Part shown: positions 11,181-60,244 of the stretch, in pieces
Numbering within the stretch: the first letter of the stretch is position 1
How the letters are laid out: every line of letters starts with the position of its first letter
Origin: Onchidella celtica
Lineage: Eukaryota > Mollusca > Gastropoda > Systellommatophora > Onchidiidae
NCBI GenBank assembly: GCA_963931925.1
Contig: OZ007570.1
Location: 29,737,188-29,801,187, forward strand
Direction: 5' to 3'
Length of the DNA: 64,000 bases
Translations under genes and position numbers: made by a program
Notes under the pieces: generated by a model
Databases searched by the model: none
Seen by the model: the letters and a program-made list of their open reading frames with translations, nothing else
Told to the model about the DNA's origin: nothing

Positions 11181-11779
11181 TTCATCCATCCGTTTATTCA
11201 TCCATTTGTCCATCCATCCATTCATCCATCCGTTTATTCATCCATTTGTCCATCCATCCATTCATCCATCCGTTTATTCATCCATTTGTCCATCCATCCA
11301 TTCATCCATCCGTTTATTCATCCATTTGTTCATCCATCCATTCATCCATCCGTTTATTCATCCATTTGTCCATCCATCCATTCATCCATCCGTTTATTCA
11401 TCCATTTGTCCATCCATCCATTCATCCATCCGTTTATTCATCCATTTGTCCATCCATCCATTCATCCATCCGTTTATTCATCCATTTGTCCATCCATCCA
11501 TTCATCCATCCGTTTATTCATCCATTTGTCCATCCATCCATTCATCCATCCGTTTATTCATCCATTTGTCCATCCATCCATTCATCCATCCGTTTATTCA
11601 TCCATTTGTCCATCCATCCATTCATCCATCCGTTTATTCATCCATTTGTCCATCCATCCATTCATCCATCCGTTTATTCATCCATTTGTCCATCCATCCA
11701 TTCATCCATCCGTTTATTCATCCATTTGTCCATCCATCCATTCATCCATCCGTTTATCATCCATTTGTCCATCCATCCA
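11181..11779. repeat. 40-bp higher-order repeat of CATC-type units, 15 copies
   Basis: From 11181 the sequence repeats every 40 bp. Each unit has landmarks TTCATCCATCCGTTTATTCA and then CCATTTGTC. Fourteen units fill 11181-11740 with almost no change (one T for C near 11330), and the 15th is shortened by one base. The near identity points to recent amplification or homogenisation. Because 40 is not a multiple of three, all three plus-strand frames read through as His/Pro/Ser/Ile-rich pseudo-protein. Confidence 0.97.
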
Positions 11780-12330
11780 TTCATCCATCTAAATATCCGT
11801 ACACTCACCCATCATTCAGTCATCCATCAGTACATTCATCCATCCATCCACCCATCTGTCTATTCATCCGTCCATCCATCCATCCACCCATCCATCCATC
11901 TATTCCATCCATTCGTCTACCCATCCATCCGTCTACCCATCCATCCAACCAGCCACCCGTGCGTCTATCCATTCATCCACCCATCTGTGCATCCATCCAT
12001 CCAACCAGCCACCCGTCCATCCATCCATCCATCCATCCACCCACCCATCCATCCAACCAGCCACCCGTGCATCTGTCCATTCATCCATTCATCCGTGCAT
12101 CCATCCATCCATCTATCCACCCTCCTCCATCCATCCATCCACCCAACCTTCCTTCCACCCATCCATCCACCCACCCATCCATCCATCCACCCATCCGTTC
12201 ACCCAACCTTCCTTCCACCGATCCATCCACCCATCCACCCATCCATCCATCCATCCACCCATCCATCTACCCACCCATCCATCCATCCACCCATCCGTTC
12301 ACCCATCTACCCACTCATCCTATCATTCTA
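11780..12330. repeat. Degenerate (CATC)n array
   Basis: Continuation of the 40-bp array into irregular CATC, CACC and CAACCAGCCACC variants, without the 40-bp periodicity. Longer local duplications such as TTCACCCAACCTTCCTTCCA recur. It looks like an older, unhomogenised flank of the array. Confidence 0.9.
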
Positions 12331-12404
12331 TCCAGTATCTCATTTCGCGCCAGATCTCTAGTAACACTATCCCATCACAGTTTTTGGCTTGAGGTAAAAT
12401 GATT

Positions 12405-17237: not shown

Positions 17238-18418
17238 TGTCAATCCACGAGTGGAGTGAGTGCAATTAAGGGGATTGCTACAGAGCGGGTGTAGAGTAAG
17301 AAGGACTCACGGTAGACAAGTTAAGCGTGCTGTTGTGAGTAGTGGGGGGGTCTGAATGAGGCGAAAGCGCTGTATTACTATCACTGCAAGTTAGAAGGTC
17401 CTACGAGACGGACCTGTGAATAAGAGCCCATCGGGCGGACATAAGGGGAGCAGTCGAGAAGACTAGTGAGAGAGTCTTTCCAGTGATGACTGGTATGTAG
17501 AATGTTGATTGATTATTATGATTGATGTATTATATTATATTCGTCTATTACCATGATGTAAATAAGTATATGTGAGGAATGTGGAAGTCCTTGATATTGG
17601 ATATAGCAATGTGCGCCATGAGCGATAGATGAAAGTGAGTTCATGGATTTGTAGCGCGAGTGAGTAGTGTGTACTCCGATGGAGGTGTGTTACCGTAAGA
17701 TGTGTGGTGAGTGAAAGGTGAACTAGTGTGTGTACGCTTCATGGGTTGTAAGGAGAGGTGGAGTGAATAGAAATGGTAGGGTATTATACCAATGTAATGT
17801 TATTCTTGTAGGTGTCGAGGACGGGCCGCAGAGCCACCTCGATGAGCACAGGGGATAGGCCAGCATAGGGCCGGAGGCCACACATAGGCCAGAAGTGAGG
17901 CTGTCAGTGCAGGACAGTAGAGGCACATAAAGTCGTGGCAGTCAGGCCACGGACAGGGACGTAGATATGAGCGTGAATGTGATAATGCACTATTGCCATG
18001 TTGAGGGGAGAATGTACTATTGAAATGATAATGTCTATTGAAATGATAATGTGTTATTGCCCTGCTGAGGTGCTAGGGGAATGCTAAGGTGTATGACAAT
18101 AAGAAGGTGATATTGAGAGACTGCGGTGCCAGTAAATTATTAATGTGCTATTAAGACCCTGAGGGGAGAGGCTGAGGCCGAAGTGCCTTTAGGAGTAACT
18201 ACCGGATTGTGGATCCGAGGGAGAGTGTGTGTGAGAATAAGGCCGTTGTACGGCAGTTGATTTCAATAATATAATGTATGTAATTGCGCTATTATCTGTA
18301 TAATTATGTTTAATAAATGTGTGAGTCTGATGGATTGTTCTGTTAAGTGTTAACTTGTTTGTTCGTGATTGTTGTCCTGTCATAACTTATTACATCTCCC
18401 AGTCTGGGATTTGTGACA
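17238..18418 (+). mobile_element. Solo LTR of the element B family (Ty3/gypsy, Gmr1-type)
   Basis: This 1.18-kb block matches the LTRs of element B (38459-39724 and 45678-46945) over nearly its whole length but in the opposite orientation, from TGTCA plus GAGTGGAGTGAGTGC at its left end to CAGTCTGGGATTTGTGACA at its right end. It is shorter than the roughly 1.27-kb LTRs of B and clearly more diverged, especially in the middle. No internal element sequence adjoins it and no 5-bp target duplication was evident. It is best read as an older solo LTR left by recombination between two LTRs of a related copy. Confidence 0.85.
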
Positions 18419-23143: not shown

Positions 23144-23877
23144 ACATAATTATGGAAGGAGGAGCAGTATGTCACACAGAAATGACTAGTGAATTATCGG
23201 GTATAGATATGGTATTGTTCAAGGATAGCTTGTTGTCGCATTTATCGCTGTTCTGCTGTGTAATTTGCGCATTTTACATCATCGCGGCGAAGGTTAAAAG
23301 GTGGGATAATCAAGACTACACATATATATATAGAACAGATCTGAGACTAATCCCAAGGCCAGGGCTCCGTTGGGTCCAGGCAAACCAGCAAGTCCTCACA
23401 GTGATCGATCCAAATCACAGTGGGAAGCGGAGCGATAAACATGTACTAATCTTTGTGGTTGCACCTGCAGTACAAATTTTAATGACGTCAAACTGCCCCC
23501 CCCCCCCTTTTTTTTTTACGCTGAAAATATCATAGATATACCCTGTGTTTTATACTGATTCAGCAACATAAAGTTGCTCTACCAAAGTGTTAAAATTATA
23601 ATTATGATAATGAATGTATTATATTAATTCTATGTTAAACTTAATAGCTCTGAATACGAAACATAAATAAAGACGGTGAAAAAACTAAACCCAGACTCAA
23701 ACTCAAACCTTCAGTTACATAAGGCCGAAAGTCTATGAAGTGGTCTGTCATATTATATTATGTAGAGATGTAAAACGTCCTATCACTGGGAAGCGATCAT
23801 GATTACCTTCGTACCGACATGGTCACTGAAATATTCATACTAATCGCCGTTACATACTTAAAGACATGACCAATGTT

Positions 23878-24825
23878 ACCTTTACACGGACATGATCTTT
23901 GTTATCTCCACACAGGCACGATCTTTGTTACCTCTACGTCAATAATTATGTGTATTGTTACTTTCATATAGACACGATTTACTTTCATACAGACACGCTC
24001 ATTGTTACCTTCACACAAACACGATCATTATTACCCTCACACAGCCAAGATTATTGCTACCTTCACACAGAGACGATCATTATTACCTTCACACACACAC
24101 GATTATTGTTACTTTCACACAGGCACGATCATTATTACCTTCACACAGACAAGATGATTGTTATTTTCACACAGGCACGATCATTATTATCTCCACACAG
24201 ACAAGATTATTGTTACCTTCACACAGACAAGGTTATTGTTACCTTCACGCCGACACGATCATTATCACCTTCAAACAGACACAGTCAATGCTACCTTCAC
24301 ACGACACGATCAAAGTTACCTTCACGGGGACACGATCGATGTTACCTTCACACAGACACGAGTGATGTTACTTTCACACAAACACCAGCCTTGTTACCTT
24401 CTCGGGGACGCGATCGATATTACCTTCATACAGACACGATCGATGTTACCTTCAGCAGACACGATCGATGTTACCTTCACACAGACACGATCGATGTTAC
24501 CTCCACGCAGACACGATCGAGGTTAATTTCACGCAGACACGATCGATGCTACTTTCACGCAGACACGATCGATGTTACCTTCACACAGACACGATCAATG
24601 TTGCCTTCACACAGACACGATCGATGTTACCTTCACACAGACACGATCAATGTTACCTCCACGCAGACACGATCGATGTTACCTTCACACAGACACGATC
24701 GATGTTACCTTCACACAGACACGATCAATGTTGCCTTCACACAGACACGATCGATGTTACTTTCACACAGACACGACCAATGTTGCCATCACGTAGACAC
24801 GATCAATGTTATCTTCACGCAGACA
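23878..24825. repeat. 26-bp minisatellite, about 36 copies
   Basis: A 26-bp unit with landmarks GACACGATC(G/A)ATGTTACC and TTCACACA is repeated about 36 times. Left-hand copies are diverse (for example GATCATTATTACC), while those to the right of about 24430 are nearly uniform and carry CGATCGATG. The open frames spanning it, one of them 550 codons long, are artefacts of a unit that lacks stops in several frames. Confidence 0.95.
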
Positions 24826-25030
24826 CACACACATTCTCTCTTCTCTCTCTCTCTCTCCCTTTCTGTCTCGTTCTCCCATTCTTTTATTTTGCGTCTACCT
24901 CTTTTTCTCCCTCCCTCTGTCTCTCCCCGTCTTTCACTTTGTTCTGATTTTTCTGTTCATTTCAAAACTACTTCAGATTTTTCAGGTAACTCCTCTCCAA
25001 TTTTGCGGCTGCCATACGTGTCAGTAAATC
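24826..25030. repeat. CT-rich low-complexity tract
   Basis: CT and CTTT runs adjoining the right end of the 26-bp minisatellite, with no coding signal. Confidence 0.8.
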
Positions 25031-25040
25031 ATCTCTCTCA

Positions 25041-25197
25041 ATGGTACCGTCACGCCAACGTCAAAATTTGTCCTGCCACTGGAAACTGCCGCTGCAATTA
25101 CTTCATTCTGTTAGTAGCGTTCGTTTTCATAGCCATGCATCTTTCTTTATTCCAGCTATCTTGTTTATGGTGCTTGCCAGTGCTTCTGGATCATCAA
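25041..25197 (+). CDS. Candidate first coding exon (signal peptide) of the CUB-LDLa gene
   Basis: From an ATG at 25041 a 52-codon frame ends at a strong donor, A|GTAAGT, at 25197/25198. It leaves one base, which is the phase needed to join the CUB exon at 26606 and makes a joined frame of 322 codons. The C-terminal part, ASFFIPAILFMVLASASG, has the hydrophobic core and small-residue end of a signal peptide, though the n-region is unusually long (over 30 residues) and the ATG context is weak. A second frame over the same exon, from the ATG at 25135, also gives a signal-like peptide starting MHLSLFQLSCLW, but ends in phase 0 and does not fit the next exon. I infer this exon from phase and composition only; a different first exon further left is possible. 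Confidence 0.42.
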
Positions 25198-25261
25198 GTA
25201 AGTGTTAAGGCATTTTTTTTCCCTGTCTTTTCGTCACAACAAACACAGTGCAATGTTGAAT

Positions 25262-25303
25262 TCCATCTGATCTCTCTCGCTCTCTATCTGTCTGTATCTC
25301 TCT

Positions 25304-25342
<39 letters not shown>

Positions 25343-25352
25343 CTCTCCTCTC

Positions 25353-25385
<33 letters not shown>

Positions 25386-25516
25386 TTCTTCTGTCTTTGA
25401 CTATATCTCCCCGTCTTTCTCTCTGTCTTTCGCTCTCTCTCTCTCTCGCTCTGTGTGTGTGTGTGTCTCCCTCTCTGTCTGTCTGTTTCTCTCTCTGCCT
25501 CTGTCTGTCTGTCTAA

Positions 25517-25549
<33 letters not shown>

Positions 25550-25555
25550 AACAGG
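25262..25555. repeat. CT/TC microsatellite tract with GT and CTGT runs
   Basis: Long CT dinucleotide runs, a short GT run near 25454-25466 and poly-C near 25517-25526. Frames across it on both strands are low-complexity artefacts. Confidence 0.93.
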
Positions 25556-26793: not shown

Positions 26794-29700
26794 GTGAGGC
26801 AGAAGAAAACAATCTGACTGAATGACTGATTTTTATTTTTTTTTCGGCCAGAGCCCCCAACCCCCCAACCCCAACCCCAACCCCACCCAACAAATTAAAA
26901 AGGGGAAGAAATTAATTTCTTCTGTTAAAATTTCAAACAGACAAAAAAACAACACATTAAAAATGATAAATTTCATTATAAATCCACCACTTCCACTTAT
27001 AGAACTGGAGAGAGAGAGAGAGAGAGAAAGCGCCCCCCCCCCCCAAGATCTAAATCTGGTCCCCGTTTCCACTCCTGGTGCCCAGAGGTTTGATCAATTA
27101 AGCAATAAGGACAGTAACATGGAGCGAACGCCTGAAGCAAGACGTGAAACATATGGCTACATGTACTGACTTCAGAAAACAGCACATTTAACTTTACTAG
27201 ATAGGACCTCGATGTTTGAATTAATTCCGGTGAATTGCCGTGAATTTCATTTCTGTAAATGATTGGCTCACCAAACCTGAAGTGTTCTGGCCCCCCCCCC
27301 CCCAAGATCTAAATCTGGTCCCCGTTTCCACTCCGGGTGCCCAGAGGTTTGATCAATTAAGCAATAAGGAGGCAAAGGCACCATTGTTGGACTGTGTTAA
27401 GGCAGTGGCAGATCTACTATAAAACTAATGGAGCTTAAGCTGCAGGTCGTTTTGACTGCCAGGTCGTCAGACGATATCCGGCGGGCTTACCTTATGGCAG
27501 GTTTACAGCCCGGGATGCCCATAGCATCCTGGGCTACCCTCCGCAGAACTATTAGAATGAGTCCCTAGTCATTTCATTCTGCGGACGGAAAGTCATGACA
27601 CTGTCGACATGTGCTGACGCTGTCGGGAACAAAATTAATTTTAAAATACCATATATAAAAAGTTATTAAGAGACAAAGCCCCCAAAGGGGGCTGGAAGTT
27701 AATGGTAGGGCCTTCCTCTCTCCTGCTTCTTCTTCTTCTTCCTCTGATCTCTGGTTGTCACGAGCAGAGTTAGGGTCTTGGGGATGTTACGACTGCACGA
27801 GAGGCAGCTAACTCACACTCGGACACAACCACACAAGAAAAGTACTAAATAACTAGAGCGTATATATGTCAGGCCGGTCAGGCCATAGTTTACATAAATA
27901 TTAATAACAAAACAAAAGACAATAGAGGTATATATTCAAACCAAAAACTCTAATTAATAACTTAACCAATAATATTCATGTAACTATGGAGGTACTGCAA
28001 TCAATAGTAAATAGGTATATTATACGAAACTGGATATCAATTTAAAGTGACAGTTGAGTCGCCACTGGCCAGTCGCCAGGCAAACTCTCCATAAATCATA
28101 TGGGCTTAAATGTTAGGAGAGCCCAGTACGTTCAAAAGCCTACAGAAGCACTCTTCGGCTTGTAGGTAATTTAAGCAGTTGCCAAAAGACTATATTTTAT
28201 GCACAATCACTATTCAATTCATCAACGATGTGCTATATTATTCCAATCATACTATGGCAATAGATCTATCATACAGGACACTCGTGGTCGAGTGCCAGCT
28301 GGGGTTTCCTTAGTCTTCCTATGAGGCTGTAGTTCTCTCTCTATCTCCGATCTCTATTATACTTGAATAATTAAGATATATTACCATTGCTCACGCCTAC
28401 TGAGAGGCGCGAACATCAAAATAGCGCAGCGTGGGCTTTCAAAGGTCAGCCCACTCAGACCTTTCTTTCTAGAGCTCAGTCAGTCCGTTAGCAAGGACTT
28501 CTTAGTCTTCAGACCACACAGTTCAGGTACTGGCCGACCGGAGATACTTCACGAAACGATGCTTCTCTCGTCTGTATTCCTCCAAATCTGAACGTTACAC
28601 GATGTTATATACTATCTAACTACCCAGCGTGCTAGTCCGCTGGCCCAATTAGTTCAGCTATCTCATAGGTCGAAACCTCCCACCATTTTAACTGTAGTAA
28701 TACGACTGCACTATTCTACCAGCCAGTTAACGTGCAAAACTTGTCTAGTCATACTTAACAATGTCAACTGTCCCCACCTTGTTTCACCCCTACTCCATTA
28801 CTTATTAATCACGAACATTAAAGCCGACAAGCGTGACTCTAGCAGTTTAACTTTACATTTATTTACTCACCAACTATAATTTGGCGAGGACCGTTCAAGG
28901 CCACCAGCCAATTTCTCATGGCCCTGGTAAACAACAACAACTCACTCTCTGCGTGAGTTTTAACAATATCCGAATCATGACATATCCCCCACCCCAGTTA
29001 AAATTTGCAATTTTAACGATATAAATTATTATCGTAAAGGGAAGGCATGAGTCGAGAAATTGCTCGAAAGGTTAACTTAACTAAGAATACTAGGTAATAA
29101 CTAAGACTAGTACTAAAGTTGAAAAAAACCTACAGGACGGGTATCATTGATGGACAAAACTTCATGAAAATCTTAAGGCTCCGTCCAAAAGTATATATCT
29201 CTCTGAGGATTAAATCTTACCTCTAAATAGGTAGACATTAACAATCATAACTCTAAAATTTTAGAGTACAACACTGATCCTGTGCGAATGTCATCAGGAA
29301 TGCATACATACAATGAATAATACTCAAGAAAAGATAACTATAGTAGCATCGATGGCATTAGTGGATCTGGACTCCTGGTCTGCCATGATCTTCTCGTCCT
29401 CGACCCTGGGCAACAACGTCTGGTGTGGCCAAAATACGGGTCGACGTCAGTAAAATAGCTGTTGGAACAAAGGAAAGCACAGGGGTAGGTGAAAAGTGTT
29501 CACAATGGGTGAACAATATGTGATACCATCCCTCGGTCTCTGAATGAGGTGCTAATCAGTATCCAACGCCAATACATATGACAGACTAAAATACAACAAG
29601 ATTAAGGTAACCGTGATAATAGGTCGGCATGGACATTATCTCCACCAGGAATGGCCTTTATAATGAAGCGGTATTCCTGAAGGGCCAGACTCCATCTGGT

Positions 29701-32700
29701 CAAACGAGCGTTCTTGGCTCGGTTCGATTTTAAAAATAACAACGGTTTATGGTCTGTCTCGATGACGAATTCTGTCATAAGTAGGTAGCGGGAAAACGCG
29801 TCTACGGCGTATACAATCGCCAGGCATTCTCGCTCTATAATAGCGTATCTCTGCTCTCTCGGAAGTAATTTCCGGCTAGCGTACATACAAGGGCGCAATA
29901 AGCCATCTCTTTCCTGAAGCAAAACAGCTCCAATTCCCTGGTCCGACGCGTCAGTTCGGACGGTGAAGGTGCGCCTAATATTCGGTAGTATAAGCAGCGG
30001 CGAACTGGAGAACAGTTGCTGCACTGTCGCGAGCGCGGTGGCGCACTGCGTATTCCAGGTAATTTTGTTGGGTCTGTCTTTTCTTGTAAGATCGGATAAC
30101 GGGGCCGTAAGGGCCGAAAAATTAGGAACAAATTTCCGATAATAGCTTAAGAAGCCTAACAGGCTACGAACCTGCTTCTTAGTATGAGGAGCCTGGAGTT
30201 TTAAAATCTTACTTATCTTACTGTCGTCCGGTGTTTGGACGCCTTTGGCGATAGTATGTCCCAGAAAGTTAATCTGCGTATAACCCAGGAAGACTTTGCT
30301 AGGCTTAGCTGTAAGCCCGGCATCTCGAAGTTTACTAAGCACTTGACGAAGTGCTTCTAAGTGGCCTTTCCAATCCGTATGGAAAGCGCAAATGTCGTCA
30401 AAGTAGCTTAGGACGCATGGTGTCTGCTGCAATAGGATGTTCATCATCCTCGCAAATGTCGCTGGTGCCGTTACGAGACCGAATGGCATGAATCTCCATT
30501 GCATGAGACCCATAGGGGTCTGAAACGCTGTGTACTGTTTACTGGCCTCTTCCATTGGGATTTGCCAGTAGCCTTTAGCCAAATCTATTTTCGAAAACAC
30601 GGACGACTCGGCCAATCGCGCAAATAGATCTTCCTGATTCGGGATAGGTTCAGCATCGTAAATGGTTAGAGCGTTAAGCTTCCTGTAATCGATACAAAAT
30701 CTAACGGAACCGTCTGTTTTCTTTACTAGTACAATCGGCGAGCAGTAAGGGCTCGTCGAGCGCTCAATGACTCCTAAGCTGAGCATCTTTTCCACCTCGG
30801 ACTGTATGGTGTCGTGCGCTTGCAGCGGGCGCGGGTAGGGTTTGACAAACACGGGTACGTCCGAGTGCAACCGGATGACGTGTTGAACTAAGGATGTTTT
30901 ACCCGGCAAATCAGTGAATACTGGCGAAAACTCCCGAACAAGATTCATGATGTCCTGTGTCTTACTTTGATCCAGCTCTGGATTGATATTAACGGAAGTC
31001 GCGTCCTCTGTGGCTTGCAAGGATAGGAGCGATCTTGTCATAGATAATGGCTCCCGGTCGTTGTCATCGATAGTGACCATCGCTGCGTTTGCTTGGGCCA
31101 CAACATGGCATGAATGATCGTGATGAGTTTGATCATCGGTAAGATACTTTTTCAACATATTAATATGGTACACCTTATCGTTACCACGTATGGTAATGAG
31201 ATAATTAACTCTCGAGAGTCGCTTTTTAACTAGAAAGGGGCCTTTCCAAGTGAGGAGTAGTTTGTTATTCGTTTCTGGTAACAGCACCAATGCCCGATCT
31301 CCGACTGACAGGGTTCTTAACCGACTACCCCGATCGCGATATCCTATAAATGACCTGGTCCGTACGCATGCAAATTGTCGAGCCAGGTCGCATGCATTAA
31401 CTATTCTATGTCGGAGATCGACTATGTACTGATACGCGGATCGCGTATCAGGAACGTCGGTATCAGAACCGGCGTATAAATCGCGTAAAATGGCCATCGG
31501 GCCACGTGGTTTTCGACCGTATAACAGTTCAAACGGGGAAAAACCCGTTGTCGCATTTGGGAGTTCCCTATATGCGAACAAGATGGCCGGAAGTCGACGG
31601 TCCCAGTCACCAGGTCTATCGGCGGAAACGCGTGCCAGCATAGTTTTCATGGTGGCATTCCAGCGCTCGCAACAGCCATTGGACTGTGGATGGTATGGCG
31701 ACGTAAGTTTTTGCCTAATGCCCGTGAGTTCCAATACTTTCCTGAAAAGGTCAGAGGTGAATTGCGGACCTCTATCAGATAATAATTCGGACGGGAATCC
31801 GACACGTGTGAATATGGTCACCAATGCCTCGGCGACGTGATCGGCCGATATTTCCTTTAAAGGGACAGCCTCAGGCCAACGGGTGGCATAATCGATTACT
31901 GATAGAATAAACCGATGGCCTCTATCCGACTTCGGTAATGGCCCGACGATGTCGACGGCAACTCGCTGAAATGGAGTGGAAACCGGCGGCATCTCTTGTA
32001 TAGGTGCCCGCGAAGTTTTTCCTTTGGGGGTTCTTTTCTGGCATGTATCGCAACGCGACACATAGCTATTTATGTCCCCGTAAACCCCGGGCCAAAAAAA
32101 CTGAGACAGGACTCTCGATTTTGTTCTCGCTTTGCCTTGGTGGCCCGCCAATGGCGTGTCGTGCGCGAGGCGGGTGATGTCTCGGCGAAATGATCTCGGT
32201 ATGACCAATTGCAAAATAGTTTCGCGCTTTCCCCGAAAAACGCGATATAGGAGGTCGTCTTTAAGGCAGAACCTGGATGTATCCGGGTTGTCCGGATCAA
32301 TCTTAGCAAAGAGGGGCTTTAGTGATGGATCTGTGCGCTGTTCGTTACGAAAAATCTCGGGGGTTACATCCAAATCGACGACAGGCGATCGTAATGTGTC
32401 GTCACTCTGGCGACGCGATTGTTGTCTTGTCGTGACACACGCAATGTCGTTATCATCCCAAATCCCGAGTTCGCAATCGGAGACGTCCTTTAAGTGGGGA
32501 ATATTCCCAATGATTAGGTCGGCGACCGGATTTGGTAGCACGCAGGCCGTGACAACACCAGTTATAAACGGTGTGTCAACATATATTTCCGCCAAACGAA
32601 AATGTTCAACTGAACCACCAAAAGTAATGCAAGTCGCATCGCGATCCAGGAGTTGTGCAGGACGGACCAGGGATTCACGTACACCGACGGTCGTACAGCC

Positions 32701-35700
32701 TGAATCTCGCAATACGGATGCTCGTATGGCGTTTACTCGTCCCTCATACAATGTCAGCGCGCCTCGCTCGTGGAGGGCGGACATCACTGGAATAACTTTA
32801 TCTACGGTTTCGGCATTCCTAGTTCTGTAACCGCGGTTTTCGGTGAATGCTACAGAGCATGCATTTGCCGCATCTAATCTAACTCTGCATTGTCGCGCAA
32901 TGTGGCCTCCGGCGCCACATCTATAACAGTAGACTGGATTATCATCCCTTCGAGGTGTACCTCGATAAGAAGGAAATGTGGGCGCTTGATAGTAGTTGTT
33001 ACGCGGTCCTCCGGTAGGGAAAGGACGTGTATATCGGGGTTCCCAGTCCCGAGAAAATTTATGGGGATTCGGTTGCCTCCTGCTAACCGGCGGCTCGGAC
33101 CGTGGACGAACCTGCGGCGACTGTCGAAAGGGCTGTCTTGATTGTCTCGACGGTACCGGTGTCTTAGTAGCAGCGCCGGCGTAACACGGTTCGTTTACTT
33201 TAGCTTTAGCTAACGATCGATTAGGGTGAGCTGCAGCATACCGTTCCGCTATCGATGTTATCTCGACGGTAGTTTTGGGGGCTTGTTCCTTAAAATGCGC
33301 CACCAGGTCCGTGTGGCAGGACATATATATTTGGTCTTTAATTATCAAATCATATAGTTTCTTATAGTTTCCCTCTTCCACACCGGCCAACTCAGTCCAA
33401 CGGCTGAGTAGGTGGCGGAGGCGGTCCACGTAAGTAGAGAAATTCTCAGATGCCTCCGGCTTGCAATCGCGGAAACGCTTATGAAATCCATCTTCCGTAT
33501 GTTGGAAACGCTTTAATAGCGCGGTCTTTAGAATGTCATAGTCCCTAGCGTCATCAATAGTGAGGCTATGGAAAACTTCCAACGCTCTCCCTGTCAAAAG
33601 ATTGGCGAGGCATGACGTGTACTCACTACGCTGCCATCCCGCGCAAACGGCATGGAGTTCGAAGCGGTGTAGGTAGGAATCAATACGATCAACCTTATCA
33701 TTAAAGGTTGGCAATTTAGGCTTCGTTTTATTATTGGAAGTAACTTCCGGAGCCCCGGTAGGTTGGGCTTGCTTCGCTTCTAACTGTTTCAAAGCGAGCT
33801 CGTACTCTCTTTGAGCCTGTTTTTCCGCGCGTTCCGCGGCTCTATCTTCTCGTTCCGCGGCTTTTTCTTCTCGTAATATCTCCGCGGCCTTTTCTTCTCG
33901 TAATCTCTCCGCGGCCTTTTCTTCTCGTAATCTCTCCGCGGCCTTTTCTTCTCGTAATCTCTCCGCGGCCTTTTCTTCTCGTTCTTCTTTCAGTTTCTGG
34001 TCTACCCAAGAAGCACGCTGAGCTTCCGGTATGCCAAATGATTGGGCCAGTTCCAAATATTTCTGTAGTTCGGCCATGATATCGGTCGATAATACGATAT
34101 AATAATGTCCTAATCGAGGACAGCTCCTGAAAAATCTCCAACTTTATTCTCCCTTGAAGCAATTTATCAATTGCACTCTGCGGGTGCTCGTTCCTGCAGT
34201 ATGAACGAAATTAACGAAATCAACAACAAACTGTACGTCTTAGTCAACCAAGTAGTGGTTGAGCTATCTCAGTGATCACTTAACTCCACTTATTTCTCCT
34301 AATCCTCAAGCAGTGAGTCTACTGCTTCCGTGATTGGTCGTTACTAACGATACCAATGTAATATTCCCAGTGTATTTTCCGTACACTCCTAGCAGCGTTC
34401 CCTCTGCTATAAATCGGAATAAATCAATATTCACGATATGAACTTCCTTGGCTATACCAGCCTAACAACTCTAATATCCAGATTATCTCTCAACGTGCCC
34501 TAGACACGTGATTTATCCCAGGCAATAATATAGCAAGTATGAATACAAAATATAATAATGCAACACTATAATGGAAAAGAATTACATGGAGAGTAAGACG
34601 AGACTAACAGAAAGAACAAACGACAACAGACCTGACTAACCTGAAACTATCTACAAAAAGGTAAGAAAAGCACAAGAGAGACGTCTTCCTAAAAGTACGA
34701 GAAAGATAGAACGCTAACAATCTATACGAATAACAGGTCCCTACAGAACTATTCAAGGCAAAGCGTATCTCCTATCCGTTTTAAACGCCATCTAGATCTG
34801 CTAGTCTGGCAAAAAGAGGTATGCTAAGTCTCGATCCCTTCCAACCTCCCGCCTATCTAATCTAACACAAAAGAAAAAAATAATGCCTGTCAAAAGTAGG
34901 GGAGCTGGAACGACGAACCCCTCAAACGAAGACAAATACAGATGGTTCACTTAACTGGGCAAAATGGACTGGCTCTTTCCTTTGGTCCACAGCGCTGGTC
35001 TTGTCTTTTCCTGATGCTAGCTGTCAGTCCCTCGTAGTGGTCCCAGGATCAATGACGAGAGGACATGCCAGACATGTGGGGGAGAAACAAACAAAAAAAT
35101 CAGCAGTATACAAAACTATAAACTACAAAAATTACATAAATAACAGTGGAGTCTTAGAGTGGTAGACCTGCAGCTGTTGACGGGGTCCTCTTCCGATGAT
35201 AGTAGTGTTCTCTAGATGTCAGAAGGTGACGGGTCCTCTTCAGATGTCAGTGGGGTCCCCTCCAGATGTCACGAGCAGAGTTAGGGTCTTGGGGATGTTA
35301 CGACTGCACGAGAGGCAGCTAACTCACACTCGGACACAACCACACAAGAAAAGTACTAAATAACTAGAGCGTATATATGTCAGGCCGGTCAGGCCATAGT
35401 TTACATAAATATTAATAACAAAACAAAAGACAATAGAGGTATATATTCAAACCAAAAACTCTAATTAATAACTTAACCAATAATATTCATGTAACTATGG
35501 AGGTACTGCAATCAATAGTAAATAGGTATATTATACGAAACTGGATATCAATTTAAAGTGACAGTTGAGTCGCCACTGGCCAGTCGCCAGGCAAACTCTC
35601 CATAAATCATATGGGCTTAAATGTTAGGAGAGCCCAGTACGTTCAAAAGCCTACAGAAGCACTCTTCGGCTTGTAGGTAATTTAAGCAGTTGCCAAAAGA

Positions 35701-38700
35701 CTATATTTTATGCACAATCACTATTCAATTCATCAACGATGTGCTATATTATTCCAATCATACTATGGCAATAGATCTATCATACAGGACACTCGTGGTC
35801 GAGTGCCAGCTGGGGTTTCCTTAGTCTTCCTATGAGGCTGTAGTTCTCTCTCTATCTCCGATCTCTATTATACTTGAATAATTAAGATATATTACCATTG
35901 CTCACGCCTACTGAGAGGCGCGAACATCAAAATAGCGCAGCGTGGGCTTTCAAAGGTCAGCCCACTCAGACCTTTCTTTCTAGAGCTCAGTCAGTCCGTT
36001 AGCAAGGACTTCTTAGTCTTCAGACCACACAGTTCAGGTACTGGCCGACCGGAGATACTTCACGAAACGATGCTTCTCTCGTCTGTATTCCTCCAAATCT
36101 GAACGTTACACGATGTTATATACTATCTAACTACCCAGCGTGCTAGTCCGCTGGCCCAATTAGTTCAGCTATCTCATAGGTCGAAACCTCCCACCATTTT
36201 AACTGTAGTAATACGACTGCACTATTCTACCAGCCAGTTAACGTGCAAAACTTGTCTAGTCATACTTAACAATGTCAACTGTCCCCACCTTGTTTCACCC
36301 CTACTCCATTACTTATTAATCACGAACATTAAAGCCGACAAGCGTGACTCTAGCAGTTTAACTTTACATTTATTTACTCACCAACTATAATTTGGCGAGG
36401 ACCGTTCAAGGCCACCAGCCAATTTCTCATGGCCCTGGTAAACAACAACAACTCACTCTCTGCGTGAGTTTTAACAATATCCGAATCATGACACTGGTGC
36501 CCACAGAAACAGGACACCAACGAGGAAGAAGGAAACAAAAAAACAATAAAGAACAGGGGGCCAGTAGATCTTCGCCTGAAGCCCCCGAGAAACAAAAGAC
36601 CTTCGAGCTTCAGGGCCCATAATCCCGGAGGGGCCCTGGAGAATTTTTTTTTTATATAGAGTGAATTTTGGATGTTGCCCTATTGTTGTTGGTTGGGAAA
36701 GGGCCCCATAATAGTTCAAGCTTCAGAGCGTCAGTAATGTCGGCCAACCACTGGTGTAGGGCATCAATTTGACCACTTTATTCGAAACCTACTTAAAGTC
36801 ATCAGCTGTTTTAGTGGTGTTGTTGTTGTTGTCGTTTACCTGACCAGGTGCGGGATGGCGGTAGATATGCGCCACTACTGGGACGGTTTTGTGACTCGGT
36901 GAACCAGTACCAGGTTACGTCGGGTAATATCTGGATGTGGCTCATGTTCAAATCGGATGGGATCAACGGTACTGGCTCCCTGATGCACTCAGCATTCATT
37001 GCTGTCTACAGTAAGTACTGGACTGCCTCTCTCTCTCTCTCTCTCTCTCTCTGTTTGTGCGTGTATGTGTATGTGTGTGTCGCTCCCTCTCTTCCTCTCT
37101 CTCTCTCTTTTGCTCTCTTTCTCTTTCTGTCTCTCTCTCTCTCCCTCTCTATGTCCATGCGTGTGTGCGCGTGCGTACATGTGTGGGTGTATTTTAACTG
37201 CAGGTGAGATAACCGCGTAAATATTAAGTGCGATATTTTGTCCTTCCACAATCTGTAACATTAACATATAAATAAATAGATAAATAAATAAATAAATAAA
37301 TAAATAAAAGCGACTCTGTACTTTCACAACACATGCAGGTAGGTCTACAACCAGTGTACATTATTTAACACCCCAAGTTTCCTTTATCCATACATTTTCA
37401 CCTGAATTGAGAATAACTAATAGGCCTACTGAAGGTTCTTGTTATCTGATGCCCTCAGTACGCCCAGAAATATTACGCTGTTTAATTTATAACATAGAGT
37501 GTTCTTGCAGTCTGGCAGTTTCAGTAACCTCTAGCATATGAAACTGTGTAGATAGATGGCCCTCGTGACCCCAAGTATTCCCAGAGTATTTTCACCGAAC
37601 GCAGGATCTGATAGCCTCAGTATCCTCAACATAATTACATCATTCTACAAGGCTCTTGTGATCTAATAGGCGCAGCACTGTCAGATAATGACACTGCGCA
37701 GACGCTCCCGATACCTGATGGCACCAGTATTCCCAGCATACCACTCTGTATTTAAAGTTTTTATTATTACATAGCTAACCCCAATAAGATCAATCTTGCT
37801 GATTTTTTGTTCTAAGGTTAAGAGAGGAGAAGAACAAAATTTTCAATCTTACTTTCAATTTTATTGTACACGGTGAAAAATTCCTCTTTTGTCTTGTGGT
37901 TAAAAAAAATATTTTAAAATGAATAAATAATATTAAACACTGAAGTTTGCCAAAAACGGAGGTGTCCACGTAACTTATCACCAAGAACTGAAGCAGTGCA
38001 CCAAGTTTCATCATATTTTTTTATCGTGTGGTCACGAAGTTTTAGATGCTTACATGTTCACCTTCTAGTTACATTATGGTAAGGTATTTACTCTTTTTTT
38101 CACCTTCAGTCCTTGTTGACTCTGTCTCTTGTCTGTTAAGTAATAGAAGGACGTGGGGGGGGGGGGGACACTATTGTTGAGCCTTGCAAAATGCATTATT
38201 AATCAGCCGTAATCTGTTATCCTATGTAATACGTCATGTATTAATTTTTTTTTTTTTATGTTTACATTCTGTCAGACAATACAACTCCTGACAATACCAC
38301 ACTGCCATATACAAGTGAGTATCATCCGCAGCCTTACACAGTGCCTCTCTTTGCAGTCTCTTGCCTCTCTTCACCAGCAGGGCCTATAATACACTTCCCA
38401 CTGTTTTGTCTTCAGAGCCATGTAGAGCCTTGTAGCAAAAAAAAAAAAAAGCGAGTATTGTCACAAATCCCAGACTGGGAGATGTAATAAGTTATGACAG
38501 GACAACAATCACGAACAAACAAGTTTAACACTTAACAGAACAATCCATCAGACTCACACATTTATTAAACATAATTATACAGATAATAGCGCAATTACAT
38601 ACCTTATATTATTGAAATTAACTGCCGTACAACGGCCTTATTCTCACACACACTCCCTCGGATCCACAACCCGGTAGTTACTCCTAAAGGCACTTCGGCC

Positions 38701-41700
38701 TCAGCCTCTCCCCTCAGGGTCTTAATAGCACATTAATAATTCACTGGCATCGCAGTCTCTCAATATCACCTTCCTATTGTCATACACCTTAGCACTCCCC
38801 TAGCGCCTCAGCAGGGCAATAACACATTATCATTTCAATAGCCCCTCAACATGGCAATAGTACATTATTAGTTCCTAGCCCATCAACATGGCAATAGTAC
38901 ATTATTAGTTCCTAGCCCATCAACATGGCAATAGGACATTATCACATTCACGCTCATATCTACGTCCCTGTCCGTGGCCTGACTGCCACGACGTTTTGTG
39001 CCTCTACTGTCCTGCACTGACAGCCTCACTTCTGGCCTATGTGTGGCCTCCGGCCCTATGCTGGCCTATCACCGTAGGCGGCGCTCTTTGGCCCGACCTC
39101 GGCACCTACAAGAATAACATTACATTGGTATAATACCCTACCATTTCTATTCACTCCACCTCTCCTTACAACCCATGAAGCGTACACACACTAGTTCACC
39201 TTTCACTCACCACACATCTTACGGTAACACACCTCCATCGGAGTACACAATACTCACTCGTGCTACAAATCCATGAACTCACTTTCATCTATCGCTCATG
39301 GCGCACATTGCTATATCCAATATCAAGGACTTCCACATTCCTCACATATACTTATTTACATCATGGTAATAGACGAATATAATATAATACATCAATCATA
39401 ATTATCAATCAACGTTCTACCTACCAGTCATCACTGGAAAAACTCTCTCACTGGTCTCTCGACTGCTCCCCTTATGTCCGCCCGCTGGGCTCTTACTAGC
39501 GTCCGTTCAGTAGGACCTTCTAACTTGCAGTGATAGTAATACAGCGCTTTCGCCTCATTCAGACCCCCCACCACCCATAACATGCACCCTTTCCTTACTT
39601 GTCTTCGTGCGTTAATTTTACTCTCCTCCTTTCCCGTCTTTCCCTACTTGTCTGCCGTGAGCCCTTCTTACTCTACACCCGCTCTGTAGCAATCCCCTTA
39701 ATTGCACTCACTCCACTCGTGACATCATCCCCCACCCCAAAAAAATTAATGCAATTAATTTCAATTCGCATCAAGATGACTGTCAACGAGTGAGCGTGAG
39801 CAATACTTACATAAAAATGACCTACCAATGCTCCTAGCACATAAAATACCGGAATCAGGGGAAAACATGGGGATCAATATGCAGTGCATTATGCATATAT
39901 GTATCACATCATCAATAGCTAACTAAACACAATACCTAATACAGAATCAAAAACCAATCAACCTATCAACCATTCTTCATATCATATTTATAATGTCAAT
40001 ATTTTAAAGTCGACTCATTCACACAGATCCTGTCAATGTTCCTGTCCTCCGATGTATAAGCTCCTGAACTCTTCCCCTAGGCTCGACTAAGGTAGTCGGC
40101 GATATGATTGCTGGTTCCTGGAATTGGTTGAATAACGAAAGTATACGGCTGCAAAGCCAATGCCCATCTAGATAAGCGTGGGCTGGACGAACGATTCTTC
40201 GACAAAAACGTTAGTGGCTTGTGGTCTGTCTGGATACAAAATTCTCGTCCCATGAGATAACGTCCTAATTTCTGGACGGACCACACAATGGCAAGACACT
40301 CACGCTCTATCACAGAATATTTTCTTTCTCTCTGCAATAACTTCCTACTGACATAACATACAGGATGGAGACATTCGTTCTTCTCCTGTAGAAGACAAGC
40401 GCCGACACCAGAGTCCGACGCATCCGTTCTGAGGATAAAATTAGATCGAAAATCGGGTAATATCAGAATGGGTGACGATGATAATGCTGTCACCAAATTA
40501 TCAAATGCTGTCTGACATTCAGACGTCCACTGGACCTTATCGGGTTGTCCCTTCTTAGTAAGGTCAGTAAGAGAAGATGACAAGGAGGAAAAATTTGGAA
40601 TGAACTTTCTGTAATAATTTAAAATTCCCACTAAGCTTCTGACTTGTTTCTTTGTTTTAGGGATTTGCAACCCTACTAATTTGTCAATTTTTGTTACTTC
40701 AGGTCTCTGAACACCTCTACCCACGATATGTCCTAAGAATACTATCTCTGGACATGCCAAATCCATCTTTGCGGGTTTAGCAGTTAACCCAAAATGACGT
40801 AATCGTTTAAAAATTACTGTTAGTGTCTGAATATGATCAGACCATGTCGACGTATGACATGCTATATCGTCAAAGAATGACACGACATTAGGTATGTCCT
40901 TCAACACTAGTCTCATTAATCGTGCAAACGTCGCTGGCGCGTTTACCAACCCAAATGGCATGACCTTAAATTGGAATAATCCAATGGGCGTTTGGAACGC
41001 CGTGTATTGTTTAGACTCCTCAGTAAGAGGGATTTCCCAATAACCTTTCGTTAAATCTATCTTGGAAAACCACGTGGACCCGGCCAATGAAGCTATTAAT
41101 TCCTCCTGAAACGGAATAGGCTCCCTATCGCCTACCGTAATAGTATTCAATCTTCGAAAATCAATACAGAACCGCACCGATCCATCAAGTTTTTTCACGA
41201 GGACGATGGGTGATGAATACGGCGATGTTGATGGTTCTATCACATCTAACTTCAACATTGATTCAACTTCCTTTATAACTCTATCTCTCGAAGAAAAAGG
41301 CAGCGGATAAGGTCTAAGAAATACTGGCTTATCCGAAGTCAACTTTATTTGGTGCTGGATCACGGTAGTGCGACCCGGCAAATCCGTAATAACATCCGGG
41401 AATGACGCTAACAGGGTCTTAAGTTCCCTACTCCTTGAACTCGTAAGGTCAGGGTTAATTTTTACGTCCCTGTAACCTTGTGTCGGAGTTAACTCCGGCA
41501 ATTGAATTTGTAACTCTTCCTGCGCCTCGGTGTCGCTTACGTCACAGTCCAACTGGTCTACGACTCCCGTACAAGCAATAGAGAAGACAGTCTCCTCTGG
41601 TCTTGTCTGTGCACACAGATACTGTGGTCTCTCATAAAATCTCTGTAGCATATTAACATGGAAAACCTTACTCGTTCCATCAATGTGGATAGCGTAATCT

Positions 41701-44700
41701 ACCTTTGAAACAACTCGCTCAATAACATAAGGGCCTTTCCATGTCATCAATAACTTATTATGGTCCGTAGGTAACAACAATAGGACCTTGTCTCCTGGCT
41801 TAAAAATTCTCAGTTTGGAACCTCTATCTTTATAGTCTTTTGCTCTTTTCGAAGCGATACTAGAAGCTTCTTCTGCTATAGTGCGCGCTGAAGATAATCT
41901 TTCTCTTAAATCAACAAGGTACTGAAACACCGAAATCTGCTCATCGTCTCCCGATGATGGCGACGTCATCATGTCCCGAAGAACATCAGTTGGGCCCCTA
42001 GGACTACGACCATACATCATTTCGAACGGCGAGAATCCCGTTGACTCCTGCCGTACCTCTCTGTACGCGAATAACACTGCAGGGATATATCTATCCCAAT
42101 CTTTAGGGCGATCAGCAGCTACCTTACGCAGCATCGACTTTAACGTCGAGTTCAATCTCTCGCACATGCCATTAGCCTGCGGATGATAAGGGGTGGTAGT
42201 GATGCGTTGTATGCTGAATAAGCGGAACAATTCCTTCATCATCTCCGACGTAAATTGCGCGCCCCTATCAGACAGAATTTGCTCTGGTATTCGTACCCTA
42301 GCGAAAATTGCAAACAACGCTTCCGCGACTGCCTCAGACGTTATGGTCCGCAGAGGAATCGCCTCTGGCCATCTCGTAGCATTACATATGACCGTTAAGA
42401 AAAATCGATTCCCCCTATCGGTCGCTGGGTGAATGGGGCCAACAAGGTCTATCGAGACCTTTTTAAACGGTTCCGAGACCGTGGAGATCTTCTGAAGAGG
42501 AGCCTGGGGTGTACGACCCTTATGCGTCGTCTTTTGGCACGCACTGCACGTCTTACAATAGACTTGCACATCTCTGTGGATCGATGGCCAGTAAAAATTT
42601 TTAAGAACCCTTTCTTTGGTTCTAGCTATCCCCATATGACCCGCTAATGGGACATCGTGTGCCAAATGCAATACTGTTGCGATCAGCAACGCTGGCACAA
42701 CGACCTGCTTTAAAATGGAGGCCACCGTTACATACTTACGGAACAGAATGCCCGCCTGAACAACAAAGGAAGACGAGCCGTTCTTATATTTCCTCGTTTT
42801 CTCGGTTCGCGCTTCCCCAAAACATGGGTTTAATGATGGGTCCTCCCTTTGTAATCTCGCCAAGCGCTCTGGCGTGATATCTAGGTTGACCGCTGGCGTC
42901 GCCAAAGGTCTAATCTTATCTTTATCAGCTACCCGTCGACGTGTTTCGACCGCGGCGCAAAAGTCAATACCTTTTGATTGCGACCATGCTTGCACGTTCT
43001 CATCGGAAGGGGAAACTACCCGTAATACATTCCCAATGATGAGCTGGGCGCCTGGAAAACAACCAACGACTGCTTCGACTTCCCCGCTAAGGAAAGGTGT
43101 ATCTATCACTATTCTTGCCATGGGTAATTTCTCAATGGCCCCCGAAAATTGGATGCACGGGACAGTCTCACCTGTAAGCTGTGAATCCCGAATGCAGTCC
43201 CTATGCACTCCCACAACGGTAGATCCTGTATCTCGTAAAACCGAGACCGGTTCGTCCCCAACAAACCCCGGATAAACCCTAAGACCACCTCCTGTATGAC
43301 ATGAATTTATAACGGGGATCTTTCTCCCACAAGGTAAAACACCGGAAGATAATAACTTCTCACAACTGGGACACTTAGAATACTGTCCGCCTCCGTTGTC
43401 CGATGTAACACACGCAGCCGCATGATGAAATTTATTAGGGGAACATGGACTGGAGCTACTGTCCACGTTCGCCGCTATCCTACCTGCAGGGCAATTCACG
43501 CTGATGTGATCTGCTCTTCCGCAGTTCCAACACTTCGCGGCCCTACACTCGCGTGAAAAGTGACCCACGCGTCCGCAAGTCCAACACTCCGCTCCCTGTG
43601 CTGCACTAGGCCTGGGTCCCCGTGACCCATCGCGACCGGAACTAAAGTCCCTATGCCGTCGGTCATCGGCAAAGGTCACAAATCGCCCCCGGCCATTACC
43701 GCGACCTAACCCTCTTGCTCGGTCAAACTTACCGGATCCATATGCAGGTGATTGGTGATAGCCCCTACGCTGCCCCTGGGCTTGCCCGCTATAGGCACCA
43801 CGCTGACGCGACCTGTCCTTAAGTCCTGCCGGCGACCCTTCGACAACGGCGACGTACCCAGCATCTTGGACGTACGCCCTGGCGACTGGTTTGGACGGAT
43901 GTGCCGTACGGTATGCTTCCGCCAACTTAGACGCCTCCTGCACCGTCGCGGGTTCGTTTTCTTTCAGGAAAGCCACCAGATCTTTATGGCACGACGCGTA
44001 CAGCTGGTCACGGATCATTAGGTCTTTCAGTTTAGCAAAATCCGCGCCCACATGCGCCAAGTCTACCCAGTTCGCGAAATATTCCGTTAGTCTCGCGACG
44101 AAGGCAGCAAAGTCCTCCCTGGTATCCGCACGTGCTCGCCTAAACTGCTCCCGGAAATATTCCTCGGTACGCGCAAATCGGCGAAGCAGCAAAGCCTTTA
44201 GCTTATCGTAATCTTGCACGTCTTCGCGCTGTAGCTCTTTAAAGTAGGTTAACGCTCGCCCCTGCAATAGAGACGCCAGGTACGTGGACCATAATTCCTT
44301 ATTTTCCCCCCATTGCAATTGTGCGTTCAGTTCGAACCTGTAAAGGAAGGCGTCTATGTCGTCCTTCCGGTCGTCGAACGTAGGGAGCTTAATCCTAACG
44401 CCACCTTTATTGTGTACCTGCCGCTCAACTGTTTCCGTTGGCGTATTCTTCTTGAGTTCTAATTCCGCGATTCTTACTCGCGCGTCTGTCTCCCGCTCTT
44501 GAGCTTCTATCTCCTTTAACTTTAACTCCCTCTCCTGAGCCTTAGCCTCTCTTTCTTGTTGACGCTCTTGAGCCTCTTTTTCTTGTTGACGCTCTTGAGC
44601 CTCTTTCTCTCTATCTTTAGCACGCTCATCGCGCAAATCCGCCTGCTGTTCTTTAATCCAGCCGCGTAGCTCTTCTCCCTCAAGGCCAAGTTCCTTACCC

Positions 44701-47700
44701 AACTTCATTAATTGTTGGAGTTCCGCCATTTCACAGATTTATGGTTATGGTATGTATTATAAAAACGGCTAACCTGTCGGTATGATCACTAACGACACGA
44801 CCAGAGACCTGAGATCACACCAGATATAACAATACCCAATTGTCTCAAATACAATTCAGAAATTTACGTACTTCCTAACTAATTCTATATTCATTAAATG
44901 TATAGCACTATTAATAATAAAAAAGAGTAGAAAAGACAAGAATAAGGAAATTCAGTAGAAGGACCACAAGTACGTCAAGGACAACAAACCAGACTAGGAC
45001 AAAGACCTAAAAAAGAAAATATAATGGAAAAAAAATGCAACCTAACTACGCCGATTACACTACACGGTACGAACAAGAACAGAGTCTGAAAAAAAAGAAC
45101 GTATCTACAGATAGGGAAGAAAGAGGGACAAGAGAATACGTCTTCCTGCAGAACAGAGAAGATATCGACGCTACAACTAAACAAAAATACAGGTCCCTAT
45201 AGAACTGTTCACTGTGATGAACGAAGTTCCAAGTTTCCCACACCTTTTGAAAAGGATAAACTAAGTTCAACACAGCAAACCCGCGCCACCGCCCGTATAA
45301 TCGATTACGACAACAAAAACAGCAAAAACAGGGAAAAAGACAGAAGAAAAGACAGCCCTCAATCCAGGGTACAAAATTTTTGACTTTTACTTAACTTTTC
45401 TGACTATAACCTCTCCCCTTGTCTCGGAGCTCTGGCTGTTGACCTCTACAGGCTGGCACACCCACTCTCTGCAGAAATTTAAGTACACATTAATACCTAT
45501 TCATAAAAATACATACATCAATACATATTCATAAATATACATAAATCATATCATGAAATTCCCATTCATCCCACGAACAAGGACAACAGCACGAATTCCT
45601 AGCACAACAGAAAAACAACTAGATATAACGAATACACAATGTCAAAATGACCACAGGTAAACAGGACGAGCCCCCAGTGTCACAAATCCCAGACTGGGAG
45701 ATGTAATAAGTTATGACAGGACAACAATCACGAACAAACAAGTTTAACACTTAACAGAACAATCCATCAGACTCACACATTTATTAAACATAATTATACA
45801 GATAATAGCGCAATTACATACCTTATATTATTGAAATTAACTGCCGTACAACGGCCTTATTCTCACACACACTCTCCCTCGGATCCACAACCCGGTAGTT
45901 ACTCCTAAAGGCACTTCGGCCTCAGCCTCTCCCCTCAGGGTCTTAATAGCACATTAATAATTCACTGGCACCGCAGTCTCTCAATATCACCTTCCTATTG
46001 TCATACACCTTAGCACTCCCCTAGCGCCTCAGCAGGGCAATAACACATTATCATTTCAATAGCCCCTCAACATGGCAATAGTACATTATTAGTTCCTAGC
46101 CCATCAACATGGCAATAGTACATTATTAGTTCCTAGCCCATCAACATGGCAATAGTACATTATCACATTCACGCTCATATCTACGTCCCTGTCCGTGGCC
46201 TGACTGCCACGACGTTATGTGCCTCTACTGTCCTGCACTGACAGCCTCACTTCTGGCCTATGTGTGGCCTCCGGCCCTATGCTGGCCTATCACCGTAGGC
46301 GGCGCTCTTTGGCCCGACCTCGGCACCTACAAGAATAACATTACATTGGTATAATACCCTACCATTTCTATTCACTCCACCTCTCCTTACAACCCATGAA
46401 GCGTACACACACTAGTTCACCTTTCACTCACCACACATCTTACGGTAACACACCTCCATCGGAGTACACAATACTCACTCGTGCTACAAATCCATGAACT
46501 CACTTTCATCTATCGCTCATGGCGCACATTGCTATATCCAATATCAAGGACTTCCACATTCCTCACATATACTTATTTACATCATGGTAATAGACGAATA
46601 TAATATAATACATCAATCATAATTATCAATCAACGTTCTACCTACCAGTCATCACTGGAAAAACTCTCTCACTGGTCTCTCGACTGCTCCCCTTATGTCC
46701 GCCCGCTGGGCTCTTACTAGCGTCCGTTCAGTAGGACCTTCTAACTTGCAGTGATAGTAATACAGCGCTTTCGCCTCATTCAGACCCCCCACCACTCATA
46801 ACATGCACGCTTTCCTTACTTGTCTTCGTGCGTTAATTTTACTCTCCTCCTTTCCCGTCTTTCCCTACTTGTCTGCCGTGAGCCCTTCTTACTCTACACC
46901 CGCTCTGTAGCAATCCCCTTAATTGCACTCACTCCACTCGTGACAAGTATCATTTATAGTATTATTGTAGATATTGCCATACGTCCCATGAAATTACACT
47001 CTTAATACTAATAATAGTCTTAGCTTGCACCAAAACCCAAAGCACCAAATTATGCCTTTATAGATGACTTACCTACCGAAGGGCGAAAGACATATTTTGA
47101 AACAATTTTGAGAGCTGCTGGTGCCACAAAATTTGCCCTTCTCCGATTTTTTAAATAGCTCGAGCTTACTGAAAGGCGGTGGTGTCTTGAGATCTGCAGA
47201 TAATATTAAATCTGGCGCTCAATTAAATAGATCGAGCTTACTGAAACAGTGAGGTCTTGAAAATTGCAGATGAAATTTTGTCTATGGTTCAGTCAAACAT
47301 ATCGAGCTGACTAAAACACAGTGATGTCCCCAAAACTGCACATAGAAATGACTTTATTGCCCAACTTCTAATGTCATCAACAGCAAAGTTCGACGAAATC
47401 AGCAAAAAGATCTTTGTTTCTCGATGGCCTCAGCCTAAAGCTAATGACCCTCTGTTCTTGATTCTTGTCTATTCTTATTCCTTGTTTGGAGTTCTTTGAA
47501 ATAAAGAGCCTACAGCGTATAAGTATAGCCTAAACTCAGTGCTATAGTGAATTTGCCAAGATTGTCCAGGTCAGACATTGAGGAAATATAAAAACCACAG
47601 AAGCTACATACAACGTTTTCTTTTTGCCAAATTTAGGACCAGGTCAGACATGTAATTCGAATTTAAACTGTCAAAATTACATTAACAATATTCTACCTGT

Positions 47701-54457: not shown

Positions 54458-60244
<5,787 letters not shown>

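Follow-up and report, generated by a model that had tools for sequence, protein, structure and literature searches.

How does a retrotransposon whose enzymes are of Ty3/gypsy type come to carry them in the order of Ty1/copia? The question is raised by a 64,000-nucleotide stretch of the genome of the gastropod Onchidella celtica (contig OZ007570.1, positions 29,737,188 to 29,801,187 of the forward strand; hereafter the window), in which two complete long terminal repeat (LTR) retrotransposons, elements A and B, lie consecutively on the minus strand, each with one gag-pol frame. An initial annotation had read both as Ty3/gypsy elements with integrase upstream of reverse transcriptase (RT) and had placed them in Gmr1, a recognised Ty3/gypsy clade with that arrangement (PMC6238403, PMC2774666, PMC2582038; papers given by PMC number are represented here by parts of their text). 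We are highly confident that A and B, both young and structurally intact, are LTR retrotransposons of an integrase-first, Gmr1-type lineage of Ty3/gypsy.

Two complete elements with integrase ahead of reverse transcriptase

The interval first marked out, 27756-46945, proves to be bounded by the outer ends of A and B. Each element is flanked by an LTR pair and by its own 5-bp target-site duplication (TSD), CTGGT on both sides of A and AGTAT around B, and the LTRs are identical or nearly so, which points to recent insertion of both.

Element A:
27756-36493, minus strand: element A, delimited by LTR pair and TSD
35267-36493, minus strand: 5' LTR, 1227 bp, TG..CA
35252-35264, minus strand: candidate primer-binding site, TGG 2 nt past the 5' LTR, TGGAGGGGACCCC
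29602-34077, minus strand: gag-pol, single frame, 1491 amino acids (aa)
33226-33489, minus strand: SCAN-like capsid (Pfam PF02023, E 1.8e-4, under the curated cut-off)
32884-32931, minus strand: CCHC zinc knuckle (Pfam PF00098)
32398-32757, minus strand: protease region, DSG motif (profile comparison with conventional proteases)
32026-32202, minus strand: integrase zinc-binding domain (Pfam PF17921, E 7e-19)
31687-31974, minus strand: integrase core, D,D35E (Pfam PF00665, E 3e-13)
31147-31242, minus strand: integrase C-terminal GPY/F module (WKGPF motif; PF22938, E 1.5e-5, below cut-off)
30250-30726, minus strand: RT (Pfam PF00078, E 3e-31)
29671-29976, minus strand: RNase H (Pfam PF17917, E 3e-34)
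28983-28995, minus strand: polypurine tract abutting the 3' LTR, GGGGTGGGGGATA
27756-28982, minus strand: 3' LTR, 100% identical to the 5' LTR (1227 bp)

Element B:
38459-46945, minus strand: element B, delimited by LTR pair and TSD
45678-46945, minus strand: 5' LTR, 1268 bp, TG..CA
45664-45676, minus strand: candidate primer-binding site, TGGGGGCTCGTCC
40077-44729, minus strand: gag-pol, single frame, 1550 aa
43899-44162, minus strand: SCAN-like capsid (Pfam PF02023, E 1e-6)
43542-43586, minus strand: CCHC zinc knuckle (Pfam PF00098, E 3.5e-7)
42969-43280, minus strand: protease region, DTG motif (phmmer match to the A protease)
42525-42698, minus strand: integrase zinc-binding domain (Pfam PF17921, E 9e-19)
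42180-42473, minus strand: integrase core (Pfam PF00665, E 1e-10)
40722-41198, minus strand: RT (Pfam PF00078, E 2e-29)
40143-40454, minus strand: RNase H (Pfam PF17917, E 3e-36)
39725-39738, minus strand: polypurine tract abutting the 3' LTR, GGGGTGGGGGATGA
38459-39724, minus strand: 3' LTR, 99.4% identical to the 5' LTR

The order in both elements is capsid, CCHC knuckle, protease, integrase, RT and RNase H. Pfam gives a SCAN-like capsid, CCHC, Integrase_H2C2, rve, RVT_1 and RNase H in each frame, with E-values near 1e-18 for H2C2, 1e-30 for RVT_1 and 1e-35 for RNase H, and long frames with domain E-values of this size exclude chance. A profile of the protease regions (130 of 188 rows, those of at least 90 aa, A included) matched the sequence preceding RT in conventional elements (80 of 119 rows, restricted to those in which RT has over 300 aa ahead of it) at a probability of 95% and E 2e-8 with the D[ST]G site aligned, and this motif is present in 184 of the 188 protease-region matches, A and B included. 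Pfam and the profile comparison together bear out the first description of both frames as gag, protease, integrase, RT and RNase H. The GPY/F module it had reported after integrase reads WKGPF in A and WKGPY in B, and the motif it had quoted, MPFGL(V)xAPATF, is present as MPFGLVTAPATF in A and MPFGLVNAPATF in B; a sub-threshold Pfam match to p58_C is seen in A only. Across a 14-row alignment, the integrase H/H/C/C and D,D35E residues (D708, D767 and E803 in A), the GP of GPY/F and the acidic residues of RT and RNase H are invariant. A and B are 58% identical in RT and 50% in integrase and therefore represent two families, as had been proposed.

The candidate primer sites are of TGG type and lie 1-2 nt past the 5' LTR, and a purine tract directly precedes each 3' LTR. 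The site of B is presumably of the transfer RNA (tRNA)-Pro type; we know of no tRNA that fits the site of A. In the 5' leader, the longest frame of A is 122 aa (33842-34210) and overlaps the gag start, and B has at most a 111-aa frame (45055-45390). Between the end of pol and the 3' LTR neither element has a frame of at least 110 aa, stop to stop, so no env is seen in either. At the gag N-terminus, both carry a 27-bp (9-residue) tandem repeat that encodes a charged, E/R/K-rich stretch, with 4.8 copies in A (33854-33982) and 2.5 in B (44544-44610). Elsewhere in the window, family B has left a lone LTR in the opposite orientation, which at 87.8% identity is probably older than element B:

17246-18418, plus strand: lone family B LTR (87.8% identity, alignment of 1278 columns)

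One integrase-first clade in both trees

Two protein searches listed the best 120 of 840 and the best 120 of 2348 matches, giving 194 distinct homologues, and a control search of the same database with a conventional query, L003, listed the best 120 of 3423, among them P0195, the record of the query itself; about 8000 candidates sharing most words were scored in each. Integrase precedes RT in all 196 proteins when A and B are counted, and in 194 of 194 listed homologues in a second mapping. By phmmer domain mapping, capsid, protease, integrase, RT and RNase H follow one another in 173 of the 196, and the remaining 23 keep this order without a detected capsid, protease or both. Loose patterns, sought anywhere in the protein, find HHCC in 195/196, D,D35E in 195/196 and the xxDD RT box in 191/196. 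Among the control matches listed, 119 of 120 are RT-first, one of them being P0195.

Separate RT and integrase trees, as the initial annotation had suggested, cover A and B, Ty3, 48 of the 194 listed integrase-first homologues and 19 of the 120 conventional-query proteins (all RT-first). In place of the named Mag, Steamer-like and C-clade references it had called for, Ty3 and the 19 conventional-order proteins stand in as gypsy references, with no copia row. Both careful trees unite the integrase-first rows in a single clade (100/100, 200/200 bootstrap trees), which holds A and B as well as elements of the deuterostomes Patiria, Diadema, Strongylocentrotus, Holothuria and Glandiceps. Conventional Ty3/gypsy elements, whose RT-RNase H and integrase are homologous to those of A and B, have RT before integrase and lie across a 100/100 branch from them in both trees. 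A and B share a ten-row set with unnamed relatives alongside (RT 100/96, integrase 97/96 in the careful trees; its membership is drawn only in the quick trees). In the RT tree this set joins Littorina elements in a 17-row set (100/99), a placement that makes a mollusc host plausible; the integrase tree has no starred set joining A with Littorina. Among the 50 integrase-first rows, RT distances correlate with integrase distances at r 0.86, with a maximum of 0.37 in 2000 shuffles, which suggests that the two enzymes have largely travelled together.

Proteins with a detected capsid (n=174, A and B included) have a median of 40% E, R or K over residues 21-110, and exact tandem repeats of 7-11 residues occur in 13 of these 174. 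Viral contigs yielded no relatives in searches with either the 14-row alignment or the RT alignment. The prokaryote genome contigs scanned held five loci, probably eukaryotic contamination; both domains were found in three of the five, all three RT-first. L001, L003 and L004 are contigs under bacterial assemblies with RT-first Ty3/gypsy pol genes, likely eukaryotic contamination; the product of L003, which seeded the conventional set, is filed publicly as a Limnohabitans protein (P0195).

Gmr1 and the competing readings

Gmr1 of Atlantic cod and its relatives were reportedly described by Goodwin and Poulter in 2002. A and B are Gmr1-type by every feature tested, with cod Gmr1 compared by description rather than by sequence. 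Their RT and RNase H are of gypsy type, as is their integrase, with its zinc-binding domain, D,D35E core and GPY/F module; RT and integrase each fall inside one integrase-first clade that includes deuterostome elements; and integrase lies between protease and RT, as in the Gmr1 clade (PMC2582038, PMC2774666, PMC6238403). The initial placement stands as regards organisation and stops short of a grouping with cod Gmr1 itself; no protein named cod or Gmr1 is among the matches listed in the three protein searches.

We consider it unlikely that A and B belong to a separate integrase-first lineage, in which the order arose independently of fish Gmr1 and outside the Gmr1 clade proper. Speaking for it, the trees hold no fish, tunicate or cod Gmr1 row; a 2018 mollusc survey, in the parts available, has 21 Gypsy clades from RT/RNase H trees, none of them Gmr1, and 16 mollusc (MolGy) clades, though it cites Gmr1 as an exception (PMC6238403); and the LTRs of A and B, at about 1.23-1.27 kb, exceed the 337-518 bp of tetraodontiform Gmr elements (PMC11117352). 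However, sea urchin, sea star, sea cucumber and acorn worm elements lie within the same fully supported clade, and A and B, at about 1500 aa in one gag-pol frame, resemble fish Gmr families, for which the frame is 1506-1634 aa and no env is counted (PMC11117352).

A recent chimera, whether a gypsy element that gained a copia-type integrase or a copia element that gained a gypsy RT, is very improbable. The order itself, protease, integrase, RT and RNase H, is that of Ty1/copia, but the enzymes of A and B are gypsy-type, which makes the likeness an analogy rather than membership. Against solved structures, the A RT-RNase H scores 232 bits to Ty3, the best match for this part, and the A integrase reaches 115 bits with foamy virus integrase, 97 bits with Ty3 and 26 bits with 7z0h_W (labelled 'Integrase', and which we take to be Ty1 integrase); the integrase also matches Integrase_H2C2. 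In Ty3 these matches fall at 599-1008 for RT and 1088-1430 for integrase, the reverse of the order in A. The corresponding copia models in Pfam are RVT_2 and gag_pre-integrs, and no copia-type RT or pre-integrase domain is listed at E 0.001 in either frame. RT and integrase, moreover, both put the integrase-first rows in one clade. Because integrase and RT-RNase H alike score to Ty3, we read the copia-like order as a rearrangement inside gypsy and not a borrowed integrase; the initial view of Ty3/gypsy domains in copia-like order holds, and the split of RT and integrase between superfamilies that would have undone it did not occur. That the order is an artefact of assembly or annotation, or a rearrangement private to A and B, has a negligible probability: no support for it was found, each element has an unbroken frame, a near-identical LTR pair around it and a 5-bp duplication of its own, and the same order recurs in all 194 listed homologues.

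Known groups of other kinds were rejected for A and B. The conventional clades (Mag, C-clade, CsRn1, chromoviruses) do not fit elements with integrase first, and a 100/100 branch separates the RT-first rows, which include no named Mag, C-clade or CsRn1 reference. Ty1/copia membership fails for want of a copia-type RT and integrase. Troyka elements have 5'-CG..CG-3' termini and a 3-bp TSD (PMC12440569), versus TG..CA and 5 bp in A and B.

Several observations weigh against our main reading of A and B. The protease is weak by Pfam, which gave no match in A and PF13650 at E 0.0038, below its cut-off, in B. The one exception among the control matches listed, the plant protein P0266, read integrase-first, with a weak integrase match. 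The homologue lists hold the best matches and may favour co-linear proteins, and so leave the overall frequency of the order unmeasured. The attachment point of the clade differs between the trees: in the RT tree it is next to all conventional rows except Ty3 and a plant element, in the integrase tree next to an Oreochromis/Pinctada group (support 85, unstarred). Some inner placements, that of Haliotis among them, also differ, and there are long rows: Ty3 in both trees, and two conventional ones in the integrase tree. The trees draw on 48 of 194 listed integrase-first proteins, 19 of 120 others and Ty3, so a second origin may lie elsewhere in gypsy diversity.

Outside the elements, positions 56581-56641 hold the one tRNA-like stretch found by Rfam (RF00005, 37 bits), possibly the head of a short interspersed element; ARAGORN found no tRNA in the window. 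Large tandem arrays occupy 7429-7977 (39 bp), 11179-12402 (40/28 bp, CATC-rich) and 23862-24826 (26 bp). Two of these arrays are overlapped by long frames, 11036-12402 and 23899-25551, which are probably not genes. Pfam, run on 10 of the 38 window frames of at least 110 aa, gave no match.

Hosts, replication cycle and meaning

Most listed integrase-first matches carry no host name. Those that do come from the molluscs Littorina, Haliotis, Ylistrum, Argopecten, Pecten, Mizuhopecten, Pinctada and Crassostrea, the echinoderms Patiria, Diadema, Holothuria, Strongylocentrotus and Lytechinus, the hemichordate Glandiceps and the nemertean Lineus; the same order in other molluscs, which the initial annotation had proposed to look for, is thus found in oyster, pearl oyster, scallop, abalone and periwinkle records. 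For the 39 named tree rows (23 mollusc, 14 echinoderm, 1 hemichordate, 1 nemertean), four changes of host phylum are needed on either tree, where four phyla require at least three; sampling is uneven, but the pattern suggests long residence within phyla more than frequent exchange between them.

The broader distribution proposed at first is correct, and mostly in print already. In the parts available, decapod Gmr1-like elements (GyRex4, Gychoro2, GyMaja1 and GyLiva4) extend the Gmr1 clade beyond deuterostomes (PMC3587641), LGF3 of the annelid Lamellibrachia is assigned to it (PMC8220671), and Gmr1 is said to be present in several phyla by a paper that did not recover it in its own annelid set (PMC8556966). 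In the decapods, the order is inferred from similarity, GyRex4 being a fragment with RT/RNase H and GyRex5 another with integrase (PMC3587641), whereas A and B are whole elements that show it. The mollusc part looks unnamed in the literature found: the open-licence papers searched, some as passages, do not name an integrase-first order in a mollusc; among those listed as pairing Gmr1 with gastropod or oyster, only PMC6238403 concerns mollusc retroelements by title; and Gmr1 has no occurrence in the other mollusc transposon papers listed, as judged mostly by search and from part of PMC10294476. Together with the mollusc records above, this hints that the order is common in molluscs but went without a name there in the literature found. 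The MolGy clades, known here by description alone, are possibly the same elements (PMC6238403).

Most likely, the rearrangement happened once, in the ancestor of the whole integrase-first clade, and was then inherited. We propose more tentatively, as an account somewhat short of even likelihood, that integrase-first gypsy elements are no rarity but one of the main gypsy lineages in molluscs and echinoderms, that the single rearrangement predates the protostome/deuterostome split and was kept within phyla, and that this lineage makes up some of MolGy, overlooked there because RT/RNase H is the sole basis of survey classification.

From this anatomy, and by analogy with Ty3 and retroviruses, the replication cycle of A and B can be sketched, and present activity is likewise a prediction. 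The 5' LTR would drive one genomic RNA, whose single frame would yield a Gag-protease-integrase-RT-RNase H polyprotein, and the element protease would cleave it inside virus-like particles. RT would prime next to the 5' LTR and copy the RNA, and integrase would insert the complementary DNA with a 5-bp duplication. With gag and pol in one frame, no frameshift would set the Gag:Pol ratio. Since the protease would free each enzyme, integrase ahead of RT need not alter the chemistry, and the rearrangement can be neutral.

A and B add two new families to a known kind and provide two complete, young elements in which the rearranged order can be seen whole. The 194 listed proteins accord with a single old and successful lineage as opposed to repeated shuffling. 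Surveys that use RT/RNase H only can overlook such an integrase-first lineage, and domain order alone is unfit to call an element copia or gypsy.

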